Positions 44,101 through 55,399 of a DNA stretch of 56,995 nt are shown here, piece after piece. The translations under genes were made by a program, and so were the position numbers. This DNA comes from Clostridia bacterium. GTDB lineage: Bacteria; Bacillota; Clostridia; Oscillospirales; Acutalibacteraceae. Location of the stretch: assembly GCA_017546665.1 (NCBI GenBank), contig JAFYSE010000012.1:1-56995 (forward strand). The letters are read 5' to 3'. The first letter of the stretch is position 1, and the number at the start of each line of letters is the position of its first letter. The notes below the pieces were generated by a model. It worked only from the letters and a program-made list of their open reading frames with translations. It searched no databases and was not told the origin of the DNA.

Positions 44101-45198
44101 ATGAACTTAAATCTTAGAAAAAAAGAAGATTGTATGTTTGATATGATTTCACTTGGTGAAATTATGCTCCGCCTTGACCCAGGTGAGGGCAGAATTAAAA
44201 CTGCTCGTTCATTTAGAGCTTGGGAAGGTGGCGGTGAATATAACGTTGCTCGTGGTCTTCGTCGTTGCTTCGGAATGAAAACTGCAGTTGTAACAGCATT
44301 TGCAGATAACGAAGTTGGTCGTCTTATTGAAGATTTCATTATGCAGGGTGGCGTTGATACATCCCTTATCAAGTGGGTTAAATATGATGGTATCGGCAGA
44401 CAAGTTCGAAATGGTCTTAACTTTACTGAACGCGGATTTGGTATCCGTGGTGCAGTTGGCGTTTCTGACCGTGGTAATACAGCAATTTCTCAGCTTAAAG
44501 CAGGGGATATTGATTGGGACTACATTTTCGGTACTCTTGGTGTTCGTTGGCTTCATACAGGTGGTATTTTTGCAGCACTTTCAGAGTCAACAGCAGAAGT
44601 TGCTATCGAAGCAGTTAAAACTGCAAAGAAATATGGTACAATCGTTTCCTACGACCTTAACTACCGCCCATCTCTTTGGAATGATATCGGTGGTAAGGCA
44701 AAGGCACAGGAAGTTAACAAAGAAATCGCAAAGTATATCGACGTTATGATTGGTAACGAAGAAGATTTCACAGCTTGTCTTGGCTTTGAAATTGAAGGTA
44801 ACGACGAAAATCTTAAAGAACTCAACATTGAGGGCTATTACAAAATGCTTGAAAACGTTGTTAAGGTTTATCCTAACTTTAAGGTTATTGCAACAACACT
44901 TCGTACAGTTAAAACTGCAACAGTTAACGACTGGTCAGCAATCTGCTATGCAGACGGTAAGGTTCATAAGGGACTTGAACTTCCAGGTCTTGAAATTCTT
45001 GACCGTGTTGGTGGTGGCGACTCATTCGCATCAGGTCTTATCTATGGTCTTATGACAACAGAAGACGCACAGACAGCAGTTAACTACGGCGTTGCTCACG
45101 GTGCACTCGCAATGACAACACCAGGTGATACATCAATGGCATCACTTAAAGAAGTTAATGCAATTGTTAGTGGCGCAGGCGCTCGAGTTCAAAGATAG
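44101..45198 (+). CDS. kdgK: 2-keto-3-deoxygluconate kinase (PfkB family)
   Basis: A 365-residue ribokinase-like sugar kinase. It shows MISLGEIMLRLDPG, the sugar-binding region EGGGEYNVARGLRRCFGMKTAVVTAFADNEVG, VSYDLNYRPSLWND, IGNEEDF and the PfkB signature DRVGGGDSFASGLIYGL with the catalytic Asp. It phosphorylates 2-keto-3-deoxygluconate to KDPG for Eda. I kept the ATG at 44101 because GGAGG lies eight bases upstream, although the family core begins at the second Met (residue 12). The stop codon TAG forms part of the left arm of the palindromic element that follows. Confidence 0.93.
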   Translation: MNLNLRKKEDCMFDMISLGEIMLRLDPGEGRIKTARSFRAWEGGGEYNVARGLRRCFGMKTAVVTAFADNEVGRLIEDFIMQGGVDTSLIKWVKYDGIGRQVRNGLNFTERGFGIRGAVGVSDRGNTAISQLKAGDIDWDYIFGTLGVRWLHTGGIFAALSESTAEVAIEAVKTAKKYGTIVSYDLNYRPSLWNDIGGKAKAQEVNKEIAKYIDVMIGNEEDFTACLGFEIEGNDENLKELNIEGYYKMLENVVKVYPNFKVIATTLRTVKTATVNDWSAICYADGKVHKGLELPGLEILDRVGGGDSFASGLIYGLMTTEDAQTAVNYGVAHGALAMTTPGDTSMASLKEVNAIVSGAGARVQR

Positions 45199-45296
45199 TT
45201 TCTTTTTTCGCAATACTTCGTGGCTTTCGGCTCGCGGTATACCTGATACAGCTTCGCCTCTGCCACATTGTCTTGCAAAAAAATAAATCTATCTTT
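45191..45296. repeat. Palindromic intergenic element, copy 1
   Basis: An imperfect hairpin of about 106 bases. Outer arms AAAGATAG (45191-45198) and CTATCTTT (45289-45296); next TTTTTT-CGCAA (45203-45213) against TTGCA-AAAAAA (45273-45283); then GTGGC (45220-45224) against GCCAC (45262-45266); GGC (45229-45231) against GCC (45256-45258); and GTAT/ATAC (45237-45240, 45246-45249) with a five-base loop. A second copy at 45990-46088 is about 85 percent identical in the core. It lies between kdgK and eda in the same operon. Confidence 0.8.
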
Positions 45297-45338
45297 CAAA
45301 AAACTAAAATAAAAATATTCCAATTTGGAGATGTAATT

Positions 45339-45995
45339 ATGGATAAAGAAAAAATCATTACTCGAATTCAGGACTGTGGTATCGTAGCTGTTGTCCGTGC
45401 AGAAACAGTTGACCAGGCGATTAGAATTACTGATGCTTGTATCGAAGGTGGCGTTGCTGCTATCGAACTTACATTCACAGTTCCACACGCTGACAAGGTT
45501 ATTGAAGAACTTGCAAAGAGATACACACCTGAAGAAATTATTCTTGGTGCAGGTACAGTTCTTGATGCAGCAACAGCAAGAATTGCTATGCTTTCAGGTG
45601 CAGAGTACATTGTTAGCCCTGCTCTTGATATTGAAACACTCAAGCTTTGTAACCGTTACAGAGTTCCAATGATGCCCGGTATTATGACAGTTCGTGAAGG
45701 CTTACTCGCCATGGAAAATGGTGCAGATATTCTCAAAGTTTTCCCTGCAGACCTTTTTGGACCAAAGATTATCAAGGATATCAAGGGACCAATCCCATAT
45801 GCTAAGATGATGCCAACAGGTGGCGTTGATGCTGACAATGTTGGTGAATGGATTAAAGCCGGTGCAGTTGCAGTTGGTGCAGGTTCATCACTTACAGCAG
45901 GTGCAAAAACAGGTGATTACAAGAAGATTACAGAAACAGGTAAACGTTTTGTAGAGAATATCAAGCTCGCAAGAGCAGAACTTGCAGGCAAATAA
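45339..45995 (+). CDS. eda: KDPG/KHG aldolase (2-keto-3-deoxy-6-phosphogluconate aldolase)
   Basis: A 218-residue class I aldolase. It shows IVAVVRAETVDQAIRITDACIEGGVAAIELTFTVPHADKVIEEL, LGAGTVLDAATARIAMLSGAEYIVSPALD with the catalytic Glu/Lys region, MPGIMTVREGLLAMENGADILKVFPADLFGPKIIKDIKGPIPYAKMMPTGGVDADNVGEWIKAG, including the Schiff-base lysine (LKVFPA). It splits KDPG into pyruvate and glyceraldehyde 3-phosphate. The start at 45339 has GGAGATG upstream and fits the family; the longer frame runs into the palindromic element. It is flanked on both sides by copies of that element. Confidence 0.96.
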   Translation: MDKEKIITRIQDCGIVAVVRAETVDQAIRITDACIEGGVAAIELTFTVPHADKVIEELAKRYTPEEIILGAGTVLDAATARIAMLSGAEYIVSPALDIETLKLCNRYRVPMMPGIMTVREGLLAMENGADILKVFPADLFGPKIIKDIKGPIPYAKMMPTGGVDADNVGEWIKAGAVAVGAGSSLTAGAKTGDYKKITETGKRFVENIKLARAELAGK

Positions 45996-46088
45996 TTTTT
46001 CCGCAATACGTCGTGACTATCGGCTCGTGGTATAACTGATACAACTTCGCCTCAGTCACATTGCCTTGCGAAAAAAATAAAATTATTT
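45990..46088. repeat. Palindromic intergenic element, copy 2
   Basis: About 99 bases, same orientation as copy 1. Outer arms AAATAAT (45990-45996) and ATTATTT (46082-46088); then TTTTT, CCGCAA (46001-46006) against TTGCG (46066-46070) and an A-run; GTGACT (46013-46018) against AGTCAC (46054-46059); GGC/GCC; and GTAT/ATAC. Compared with copy 1 the G-C pair inside the GTGGC stem is replaced by A-T on both sides, and the outer arms have a different but again complementary sequence. Confidence 0.8.
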
Positions 46089-46114
46089 CAATTCGAAACA
46101 GGTAAAATATGGTG

Positions 46115-46141
46115 CGGCGGGGTAAATCCCTGCCGTTTTTT
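46115..46141 (+). terminator. Terminator of the uxu operon
   Basis: CGGCGGGG (46115-46122) pairs with CCCTGCCG (46128-46135; one G-T pair), followed by TTTTTT. It comes after palindromic copy 2. Confidence 0.88.
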
Positions 46142-46142
46142 C

Positions 46143-46171
46143 TTGCAATAATATAGCTTTAGTGATACAAT
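46143..46171 (+). promoter_or_regulatory. Promoter of the LRR/dockerin gene
   Basis: TTGCAA (46143-46148) and TACAAT (46166-46171), 17-base spacer ending in TGA (extended -10), right behind the uxu terminator. Confidence 0.7.
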
Positions 46172-46202
46172 TATACAAATATTACGAAAGGACGGTGCAG
46201 AA

Positions 46203-47666
46203 GTGAAAAGAATAATTGCTCTTGTAATTGCCATAATTGTGCTTCTTTGTAGTCTTTCTCTACCGTCTTTTGCAGTTGATTACACCAATTTCTCCTGTGA
46301 GATTATAAATGATGAAATCATAATAACAAAATATATCGGTACAAATAAAACAAGTATAACTGTGCCCACCACCCTTGATGGAAAGCCCGTTGTTGCGATT
46401 GCTGATGGTGCATTTAAGGGTAATACGGAACTGACAACGGTTAAAGTGAATGAGGGAATTCGTGATATTGGTGCTTCTGCTTTTGAGGATTGTACCTCTC
46501 TTTCAACAATTACTTTACCAACCACTATAACTCATATTGGTGAAAAAGCTATATATAATACTGCATACTATAACAATGTAAGCAACTGGAAGAAACAAGT
46601 AAAAGATGAATCTTCCGGGGGCATTGGTTTTGGAAACGGTATGCCGCAGATTTCTTGGGAGGATATTGCTGCTCAAGAATTGGAATATTTATACTTAGGT
46701 ACTAATCTTATAGAGATTTCCTTTATAGGCTCTTATTCCTTAAAAAGTGGAACTCGTGTTATTGCCGATGGTGCCTTTGCAGGTAGTAAAGCGGAAAGAG
46801 TGACATTATCAAACACTCTGGTAACAATCGGCAACAATGCTTTTAAGGATTGTGTAAGTCTAAAAGAAATTGTCTTTATAGATGCGATTGAAACTATTGG
46901 TGACTATGCATTTGAAGGCTGTACTGCTCTTAAAACAATCAATCTGCCGGATAAATATATTGAAATGAATTCAAGTTCATTTTATAACACGGGGTATTAC
47001 AATAACGAAAGGAATTGGGACGGAGATATTCTGTATTCAGGGAATCATTTAATTGCAGTTAAGGATAACCCTAGCTTTATCGAAGTCAAAGATGGCACAA
47101 AATATGTTGTGGGTAATACATTAAGTAATAATGTGTATATTACTGAAAGTGTAAAAAAAATCTCTAACAATGCTTTTGATAACAATACAAATGCTACGAT
47201 TTTTGGCTATGCAGATACTTACGCACATTCTTACGCAACAACAAATAACATAAAGTTTGTTGATATGAGTACTCTTATAAAAGGGGACCTTGATGTTGAC
47301 GGAAAAATCAGCAGAGATGATTACGAAATTCTTTGTCAAATCGCAACCTCTATGGAAAAACCTAATCTTGTCGAAAAAATCGTGGGAGATATGGATGATG
47401 ACGGAGCACTGGACGGAATTGATGTAATTATTCTTGATTTGATGCTTAAGGATATGCCACCATCAAGACTTAAAGGTGATGTTAATGGGGATAACAAGGT
47501 TGATGTTGACGATTACGACTTGCTTGTGAAAATTGTGTCAACAAAAGAAAAAATAACGGATAATGTTATGTTCCAACGTGCCGATATAAATGAAGATGGT
47601 GCAGTTGATGCTCACGATGCAATATATCTTGATTTAGCACTCAATGGAATAGTAGCTTTAATATAA
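46203..47666 (+). CDS. Secreted BspA-like leucine-rich-repeat protein with tandem dockerin repeats
   Basis: A 487-residue secreted protein. Residues 1-24 are a signal peptide ending in SFA. About 30-340 contain LRR_5 (BspA-type) repeats such as IADGAFKGNTELTTVKVNEGIRDIGASAFEDCTSLSTITLP and IGDYAFEGCTALKTINLP. The C-terminal 130 residues hold four calcium-binding dockerin F-hand repeats (GDLDVDGKISRDDYEIL, GDMDDDGALDGIDVIIL, GDVNGDNKVDVDDYDLL, ADINEDGAVDAHDAIYL), i.e. two dockerin type I domains. Dockerins dock to cohesins of scaffold or anchor proteins. The start is GTG, with AAAGGACGG upstream. It stands alone between terminators. Confidence 0.85.
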   Translation: MKRIIALVIAIIVLLCSLSLPSFAVDYTNFSCEIINDEIIITKYIGTNKTSITVPTTLDGKPVVAIADGAFKGNTELTTVKVNEGIRDIGASAFEDCTSLSTITLPTTITHIGEKAIYNTAYYNNVSNWKKQVKDESSGGIGFGNGMPQISWEDIAAQELEYLYLGTNLIEISFIGSYSLKSGTRVIADGAFAGSKAERVTLSNTLVTIGNNAFKDCVSLKEIVFIDAIETIGDYAFEGCTALKTINLPDKYIEMNSSSFYNTGYYNNERNWDGDILYSGNHLIAVKDNPSFIEVKDGTKYVVGNTLSNNVYITESVKKISNNAFDNNTNATIFGYADTYAHSYATTNNIKFVDMSTLIKGDLDVDGKISRDDYEILCQIATSMEKPNLVEKIVGDMDDDGALDGIDVIILDLMLKDMPPSRLKGDVNGDNKVDVDDYDLLVKIVSTKEKITDNVMFQRADINEDGAVDAHDAIYLDLALNGIVALI

Positions 47667-51370: not shown

Positions 51371-51652
51371 AAAAAAATCGCCCCACTATCAAAGTTAGTT
51401 GATAGGGACGACGGAAAAATCTATCGTGGTACCACCCTAATTCATCGGCAAAGCCGACCTCTATGACTTCTAACAAAGCCTGACTTGATAACGGGGTCAA
51501 CCGTCACGGGCTATGATTTCACCCATGCAACTCCGAAACGAGTTATACACATAAACACTGTGTTGCCTTGCACCAAACGGCAACTCTCTGAAAGCGAGTG
51601 AATTATGTCTTGTTTTCTTCACTGTTTTTGATAGGGGTTATTAAATTGATTG
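51371..51652 (-). promoter_or_regulatory. T-box leader (tRNA-Leu-sensing) of leuA
   Basis: The minus strand has the T-box core AGGGTGGTACCACG (51438-51425) and then a terminator, TCGTCCCTATCAA against TTGATAGTGGGGCGA with a run of T (51412-51371). Upstream lie stem I features: AGAGAGTTGCCG, TGGTGCAAGGCAAC, and a likely specifier loop around ATAACTCGTTT, with CTC (51542-51540) as a candidate Leu codon. The alternative antiterminator uses the T-box bases. Uncharged tRNA-Leu would allow readthrough into leuA-leuB. The specifier is a proposal; leuA downstream supports Leu. Confidence 0.88.
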
Positions 51653-54382: not shown

Positions 54383-55399
54383 ATGAAATACATTGAATTT
54401 GATAACAATAAAGAATTTGACTTAATCCTTTTAGGTCGTGTTGCAGTTGACTTAAATCCTGTTGACTATTATTGCCCACTTAACGAAAGCACAACATTTA
54501 AAAGATATTTAGGTGGCTCACCTGCCAATATTGCAGTTGGTCTTGCAAGACTCGGCAAAAAATGTGGTTTCTTCGCTCGTGTTTCCGACGACCAACTTGG
54601 AACCTTCGTAACAGATTACTTTGAAAACGAGGGTATTGATATTTCACATATCAAGCGTTGCCAGAATGGTGAAAAAATCGGTCTTACATTTACAGAAATC
54701 AAGTCAGAAACAGAGAGTTCAATCGTTATGTATCGTAACGAGGCAGCTGACCTTAAATTAGATGTTGAAGACATTGATGAAGATTATATCAACCGTGCAA
54801 AAGCAATCCTTATTTCAGGTACAGCTCTTGCAGAAAGCCCATCAAGAGAAGCAGCTCTTAAAGCAGTTGCACTTGCAAAGAAAAATGGTGTGCCAATTAT
54901 CTTCGATATCGACTACCGTGCATACAACTGGAAAAATAGTGATGAAATTGCAATTTACTATTCATCAGTTGCTCGTGAAGCAGATATTATTCTTGGCTCT
55001 CGTGAGGAGTATGACCTTACAGAAAAGTTTATCAATCCAAACATGACTGATAAAGAAACAGCAGCATATTGGCACTCACAGAATGCAAAAATTGTAATTA
55101 TCAAGCACGGTAAGGAAGGCTCAACGGCTTACACAAACGACGGTGAAAGCTATTCAATCAAGCCATTCCCTGTAAAACTTCTCAAATCCTTCGGTGGCGG
55201 TGACGGTTACGCATCTGCATTCCTTTATGGCATATTTGAAGGTTGGGAAATCATTGATGCTCTTGAGTTCGGCTCAGCATCTGCTGCAATGCTGGTTGCA
55301 TCCCATGCCTGTTCACAGGATATGCCAACAGTAGATGCGGTTAAGAAATTTATTGCAGACGAAAAAGCAGAGTATGGCGAAATGATAGCTCGTGCTTAA
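54383..55399 (+). CDS. iolC: 5-dehydro-2-deoxygluconokinase (IolC)
   Basis: A 338-residue PfkB-family kinase of inositol catabolism. It opens with the IolC-type LILLGRVAVDLNPVDYYCPLNESTTFKRYLGGSPANIAVGLARLGKKCGFFARVSDDQLG, has SGTALAESPSREAAL, IIFDIDYRAYNW, ADIILGSREEYDL and ends with the PfkB signature SFGGGDGYASAFLYGIFEG, where the catalytic Asp follows GGG. It phosphorylates 5-dehydro-2-deoxy-D-gluconate, the product of IolB. AGGAGAG lies upstream, in a 12-base gap after iolJ. Confidence 0.92.
   Translation: MKYIEFDNNKEFDLILLGRVAVDLNPVDYYCPLNESTTFKRYLGGSPANIAVGLARLGKKCGFFARVSDDQLGTFVTDYFENEGIDISHIKRCQNGEKIGLTFTEIKSETESSIVMYRNEAADLKLDVEDIDEDYINRAKAILISGTALAESPSREAALKAVALAKKNGVPIIFDIDYRAYNWKNSDEIAIYYSSVAREADIILGSREEYDLTEKFINPNMTDKETAAYWHSQNAKIVIIKHGKEGSTAYTNDGESYSIKPFPVKLLKSFGGGDGYASAFLYGIFEGWEIIDALEFGSASAAMLVASHACSQDMPTVDAVKKFIADEKAEYGEMIARA

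Follow-up and report, generated by a model that had tools for sequence, protein, structure and literature searches.

A palindromic repeat with a stop-codon address around eda in a bacterium of the Acutalibacteraceae

REP elements may form a hairpin in single-stranded DNA, and attC sites fold on one strand and are positioned just after a gene. Among the enterobacterial repeats, ERIC is predicted, in the part of the account drawn on here, to adopt a single long stem-loop fold (PMC2267715), and the corresponding part of the YPAL account gives target duplications of 3-26 bp, with targets located at dyads or beside them (PMC2229807). Here we describe a repeat found on both sides of eda in the window, by which we mean the whole 56,995-nt stretch analysed (contig JAFYSE010000012.1, from a gut bacterium of the Clostridia). 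No earlier description of the element family was recognised in a library of open-licence full texts, judged by titles and abstract openings.

Two copies of the element around eda

The first-pass annotation of the window had pointed to two copies of an element flanking eda, and direct reading of positions 45191-46088 bore this out (Table 1). Its finer observations were also found in the letters: the inner stem GTGGC/GCCAC of copy 1 is GTGAC/GTCAC in copy 2, a C-A mismatch of copy 1 is a C-G pair in copy 2, and the outermost arms are unlike between the copies and complementary within each. Copy 1 occupies the kdgK-eda gap, and copy 2 the gap between eda and the gene for a dockerin/leucine-rich-repeat protein. 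A point absent from that annotation is that the stop codon of the preceding gene falls within the left outer arm of each copy, TAG of kdgK (45196-45198) in copy 1 and TAA of eda (45993-45995) in copy 2.

Table 1. Features in and around the two copies, in window positions. Copies 1 and 2 are themselves among the training rows of model R1, so their bit scores are self-included.
Feature	Position	Strand	Basis
kdgK-like sugar kinase gene	44134..45198	+	PfkB 6.2e-21 (profile search), ORF list
Copy 1, left outer arm AAAGATAG	45191..45198	+	read directly
Copy 1, hairpin core	45203..45283	+	97.2 bits with model R1
Copy 1, right outer arm CTATCTTT	45289..45296	+	read directly
eda (KDPG/KHG aldolase)	45339..45995	+	PF01081 6.6e-43; TIGR01182 above cut-off
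Copy 2, left outer arm AAATAAT	45990..45996	+	read directly
Copy 2, hairpin core	45996..46076	+	97.3 bits with model R1
Copy 2, right outer arm ATTATTT	46082..46088	+	read directly
Intrinsic-terminator-like hairpin, then TTTTTCTTGC	46114..46136	+	consensus match

Folding of the two copies gave a single unbranched hairpin with internal loops and 0 branch points, in place of the branched hairpin that had been proposed. Compared with 200 dinucleotide shuffles, the fold energy of copy 1 corresponded to a z of -5.8 on the + strand and -6.3 on the - strand, and that of copy 2 to -3.1 on the + strand, where one shuffle was equally good, and -4.6 on the - strand.

A terminator scan of 44900-46400 gave one match (mean for shuffles, 1.2), located 3' of copy 2 at 46114-46136, and this is probably the end of a transcript holding both copies. 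Because it is the only intrinsic-terminator match in this interval and comes after copy 2, both hairpins are probably in the transcript, and since they are probably transcribed an effect of the copies on the mRNA is possible. In the same scan neither copy was itself picked as an intrinsic terminator, and there is no T run; on these grounds the identification of the element as a terminator was dropped.

Rfam 15 at the gathering cut-off, applied to the window and 31 loci, returned only T-box, tRNA, tmRNA and Gut-1 matches, none of them at the element; low-scoring matches below that cut-off look like chance and were set aside. The Rfam scan placed a T-box leader at 51401-51631 of the window on the - strand (117 bits).

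Copies, gene ends and pairing in the genus

Model R1, built from an alignment (A3) of eight own-genome copies, found nine strong copies in the own genome and, in a search of 59 genomes, 81 matches in 21 genomes, all of them among the 36 genomes of the genus; none of the 23 genomes from other genera of the order gave a match. An extended model, R2, was built from alignment A5, which holds 73 of the 81 matches (one short and two degenerate copies, three tandem neighbours and two weak matches were left out). With R2 the element was found in 24/39 genomes of the genus and, across the order, in 52/295 genomes and 28/148 genera, the own genus counted; scores in the order were at most 64 bits, the own genome apart, and reached 120 bits in the genus. 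Copy 1 used as a blastn query gave no match in plasmids or phages. A search for more copies in this genome and its relatives had been suggested by the first-pass annotation, with a mere local duplication as the alternative. The dispersed copies found elsewhere in the own genome and the genus, with their stems kept, rule out that alternative; the original finding holds and is larger in scope than first stated.

Two further arrangements were seen among these loci. At one (L071, G021:C2:48843-49252) four copies stand in tandem about 110 nt apart. Another (L009, G000:C5) has two tandem copies and beside them, at 1502-1527, the short hairpin TACCGCGAGCCGATAGACACGCGGTA, whose letters resemble the tip and which is perhaps a reduced relative.

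To place the copies relative to genes, we looked for a frame on the same strand, either 100 codons or longer or extending past the edge of the locus, whose stop codon falls no more than 15 nt ahead of the core and no more than 2 nt inside it. Of the 69 copies that stand alone or first in a tandem row, 58 have such a stop; one of the remainder has an opposite-strand stop and ten have neither. Tandem followers of another copy make up 12/81 matches and are not at a stop codon. Random positions gave 73/3240 (2.3%), in a control where frames running off the locus start, counted for the copies, were not counted. The stops at the 58 copies are TAA (31), TGA (16) and TAG (11). For 56 of these copies (G005:C89 and G031:C3, whose frames are cut by a contig end, were excluded here and from the target-duplication test below) the stop belongs to 27 distinct genes. 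Besides kdgK and eda these include an iolC-like kinase, formate-THF ligase, class II fructose-bisphosphate aldolase, TrpS, ArgG, YchF, MnmA, NifU, ValS, GatB, Frr, Obg and aldehyde dehydrogenase genes, among others; all 27 were queried in profile searches, some as partial frames, and 26 matched, the host gene at L043 giving no NCBIfam match. The host genes are unrelated, mostly housekeeping and without a common theme, and because 27 such genes carry copies there is no regulon. In some cases the right arm changes with the stop codon: at ends reading WDGTI, TGA goes with TCA (G009) and TAA with TTA (G005), the gene being an aldehyde dehydrogenase by profile in G023 and G005 being grouped there by its tail only.

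The element is one long, imperfect, unbranched hairpin of about 110 nt, conserved at its tip and internal loops. On the plus strand the outer arm is followed by N-TTC (or G-CAT), a run of five T, CCGCAATACTTC and a stem of about six pairs, and then by an internal loop, a 3-pair stem, TC, two pairs, GTAT and a loop of 4-5 nt; the right half mirrors each part in turn and has a bulged T in its outer arm. The compensatory changes first noticed between the two window copies are family-wide. Across the 73 copies of A5, both partners have changed in 29/36 pairs, and of the 2605 cells 88.5% are paired, against 39-47% when the partner is slid by 1-3 columns, and none of 500 shuffles attains any of five pairing measures; kinship among the rows inflates the covariation figures, and is equal in the slid controls. 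The inner six-pair stem seems displaced in a subgroup of 30 rows, separated from the others on a simple motif, and its pair count is lowered by this. The outer arms vary between copies, and their longest unbroken paired run averages 7.0 nt over the 81 matches, compared with 4.4 nt (maximum 4.9 in 200 rounds) when each copy is given the right arm of another. The run is four or less in 16/81 matches, copy 2 included, whose arms fall outside the offsets tried by the script.

Twelve presumed orthologous pairs of copies, picked by hand, were compared directly. Between them 19 base pairs have changed on both sides and 15 on one side and are still paired, 33 are broken one-sidedly and 8 are broken with two changes; unpaired cells differ in 54/372. 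Pairing seems to have been kept up after insertion, through selection or template switching (PMC8794818).

Possible insertion history and wider kin

Gene ends with and without the element were compared among the relatives. The kdgK-eda gap is without it, kdgK ending in TAA, in G004, G007, G011, G014, G015, G018, G032 and G035, and, kdgK ending in TGA, in G025 and G026. The gap is filled, with copies giving TAG, in G000, G008, G009, G010, G013 and G017, and holds element remnants in G021 and G031. At the end of fba, where 9/10 loci gave a result, the site is filled in G000, G008, G015 and G021 and unfilled in G004, G005, G009, G010 and G011. The end of the iolC-like gene (result at 20/25 loci) is filled in 4/20, namely G004, G015, G017 and G028, with remnant-like sequence in G009, G010 and G016; in the own genome the end of this gene (window 54383-55393, +) is empty. 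Two features used to recognise MITEs, empty sites in relatives and a dispersed non-coding repeat with complementary ends, are therefore present.

Direct repeats of the gene end are clear beyond the right arm of individual copies, of 10 nt at G030:C23, 7 nt at G013:C295 and 6 nt at G004:C5:310695. Over 56 copies the target-duplication signal is weak (5.30, compared with 5.02; 3/300 shuffles as high). The idea that the right arms arise anew by inverted copying from the host was dropped, as the fresh-looking copy G030:C23 suggests that the arm is partly coded by the element.

A tree was made from 43 of the 73 copies, taken because their gene recurs, on 81 columns and with many forks open. Copies cluster by locus on it, the locus label requiring 21 changes compared with 33 when shuffled (0/200 as low). 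On well-supported branches the label must nevertheless have changed three or more times at eda and two or more times each at kdgK, the iolC-like gene, fba, abc, fhs, trpS and argG. This suggests that some gene ends were colonised repeatedly by separate insertions, a reading of sequence comparisons in which a label change may also be a loss and gene conversion could produce the same picture. The element may have been mobile in the genus.

Related hairpins occur more widely. In one genome (G033, L153-L156) the hairpin is part of repeats about 282 bp long that have AGGGCGTGCGGATT... as inverted ends and enclose two inner hairpins, and the flanks of 4/5 copies resemble an intrinsic terminator split at its loop. 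In another (G219, L138-L147) the same hairpin is found in repeats of about 250 bp with long inverted ends and a T-arm-like GGGTTCGACTCCC stretch. The conserved tip of the proposed superfamily is TTCGT..CTCG-NNGTAT-loop-ATAC-NNCTTCG..CCTTG, and a search pattern for the tip has at least 109 matches in genome contigs, from Clostridia, Bacteroidota, Verrucomicrobia/Lentisphaerae and others, and two in viral contigs, of which L397 is a weak partial model match and L398 none. When R2 was run on 100 of the 111 listed tip-pattern loci, 87 matched at E <=0.1, a proportion that is partly by construction as the pattern is the tip of R2; outside Clostridia the scores were about 53 bits or less. Long palindromes can also reach a score through their shape only. 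Among the matches listed, extra motifs stand beside the tip in 15/25 distinct Bacteroidota, 7/12 Verrucomicrobia/Lentisphaerae, 6/53 of the rest (mostly Clostridia), 1/9 others and 0/2 viral matches, counts that stem from few genomes and are strong only in some groups; none of the matches listed has these motifs with the sides swapped. Fourteen genomes picked by tip matches hold 2-33 element matches each. Common descent of the hairpins across phyla is possible on this sequence resemblance. We put forward only tentatively, as a doubtful proposal, a multi-phylum superfamily of hairpin DNA with a shared tip, moved by some enzyme that would work on folded single-stranded DNA and aiming at stop codons, at least in this genus, so that proteins are left whole.

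Mobile DNA or structured RNA

The strand opposite to the mRNA folds more stably in 71/73 copies with DNA parameters and in 67/73 with RNA parameters. Wobble pairs were counted as a second indication: over the whole hairpin there are 80 G-T and 67 A-C cells, with no overall skew toward the mRNA strand, 43 and 59 when helix 3 is removed, and 19 and 53 in the inner helices 2, 4 and 5 alone. Taken by themselves, the outer arms favour the mRNA strand (24 G-T vs 6 A-C), and a small tRNA control from the same loci (n=7 tRNAs) gave 7 G-T vs 0 A-C. A C-A mismatch stands at one place in 62/73 rows, and is a T-G wobble on the other strand.

We judge it somewhat probable that copies 1 and 2 are small, non-coding, non-autonomous, MITE-like palindromic DNA elements set at stop codons; the element looks more like mobile DNA than a gene-control RNA, and a role in the mRNA is possible but unsupported. 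It is called MITE-like because of its behaviour, that is dispersal, complementary ends and empty sites. The first-pass annotation had offered a REP/MITE-like repeat or an RNA tuning kdgK, eda and downstream mRNA, and it is the former half that stands: the copies follow 27 unrelated genes and, of the two strands, the mRNA-sense one folds less stably, which argues against specific tuning of these genes. As a MITE-like element, the hairpin would act as folded single-stranded DNA, chiefly as the strand opposite to the mRNA, and would be recognised by a putative recombinase or transposase that locates gene ends. Pairing would persist from the need of this enzyme, from replication template switching that repairs and copies the hairpin arms, or from both; the landing site would be tolerated because the reading frame stays whole, effects on the mRNA being a by-product. 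A counterpoint to the DNA reading is that the 19 double changes kept paired in the 12 pairs are also expected under selection on RNA.

Such selection is the core of a 3'-UTR account, in which a structured RNA at the stop codon would block re-initiation by the ribosome or protect the 3' side of the mRNA. With it agree the fixed orientation of the copies and a stop codon that lies within or adjoins the outer arm in 58/69 of them, the place of both window copies before the only terminator match, the joint change of stop codon and right arm (G009, G005) and the G-T excess of the outer arms, and part of one study describes stable mRNA structures directly after stop codons (PMC7518266). We consider this account unlikely, as it is the mRNA strand that folds less well, A-C is about as frequent as G-T over the whole hairpin, presence is patchy with relatives lacking the element at the same gene, the host genes are unrelated, and the 12 tandem followers lie away from stop codons. 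A small antisense RNA, made over the gene end from the opposite strand, would suit the better folding of that strand but is very improbable: no Rfam family is found, promoter-like matches (4 vs 3.6 in shuffles) are as expected, and within 44900-46400 the opposite strand has a single one, at 46329-46302, which is more than 200 nt from copy 2.

It is also improbable that the covariation is mainly mutational, arising in an old palindrome whose arms template switching corrects, and extends over the gene end, without selection. Dispersal and the stop-codon position would then be left unexplained, the unpaired letters conserved at the tip and in the loops could not be maintained in this way, and the 33 one-sided breaks in the 12 pairs stand uncorrected; this has to be set against the absence of an overall G-T/A-C strand skew, the right arms that follow lineage-specific gene ends (GCGAAATAG/CTATTTCGC in G014 and G016, CTAAATAG/CTATTTAG in G008) and the template-switch process described for RNA hairpins in part of the cited source (PMC8794818). 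Membership of the REP elements, moved by the Y1 tyrosine transposases of the genus, was prompted by the RAYT-like genes present there, three of which have a strong element copy within about 2.5 kb. It was dropped as a most improbable identity on the end tags, the flanking pair and the hairpins that these genes have of their own. GTAG stands at an end of 1 of the 73 copies and CGTC in 4. The transposase search, which covered the one family Y1_Tnp, scanned 30 loci with R2 and linked no transposase to the element: it found a strong element match in three (L199, L200, L201) and a weak one in L204, and no RAYT gene between two inverted copies; at L201 one strong and one weak match in opposite orientation lie side by side and do not flank the gene. 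Different, GTAGGG hairpins occur at 14/23 RAYT-like loci, at least seven of which have an inverted pair of them within the gene, and the element is about 110 nt long, compared with 20-40 bp for REPs in the part of the source used (PMC3733652). At L201, L203, L205, L206, L211, L213 and L216 the inverted GTAGGG pairs are apparently inside the coding frame, where they encode recurring peptides such as VGAIHESP.

If the MITE-like reading is true, small palindromic mobile repeats gain a family with a stop-codon address. Covariation here is as strong as in structured RNA, though the evidence points to DNA, which is a warning for covariation-based RNA discovery, and the element offers a natural system in which template-switch repair may be told apart from selection for pairing. 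If confirmed, the repeated colonisation of gene ends raises the question of which enzyme finds stop codons in DNA.

Several described systems share part of this character. The ribosome termination structure (RTS) is also a stable mRNA structure right after the stop codon, but in the part of its description considered it is a general folding feature of many genes and not a repeat family of shared sequence (PMC7518266). In attC and the attC-like OTH-22-1 structure is likewise conserved over sequence, and OTH-22-1 is multi-phylum according to part of its account (PMC8632094); the conserved part of the element is instead its tip, the comparison with OTH-22-1 being by description alone. Identity with attC was dropped, as the end boxes RYYYAAC and GTTRRRY occur together in 0/73 copies (RYYYAAC alone in 1). 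REPs with RAYT are, like the element, palindromic, imperfect and near gene ends, but the element is without the GTAG tag and about three times longer or more, and RAYT-like genes here accompany other hairpins. ERIC and YPAL (RU-1, RU-2; enterobacterial and Yersinia MITEs) are, in the portions of their descriptions used, likewise palindromic, dispersed, intergenic and without a proven transposase; they belong to another phylum, and by these descriptions the stop-codon link, fixed orientation, covariation and conserved tip set the present element apart. It is a palindromic repeat with two unusual traits, a stop-codon address in fixed orientation and covariation of the strength seen in RNA.
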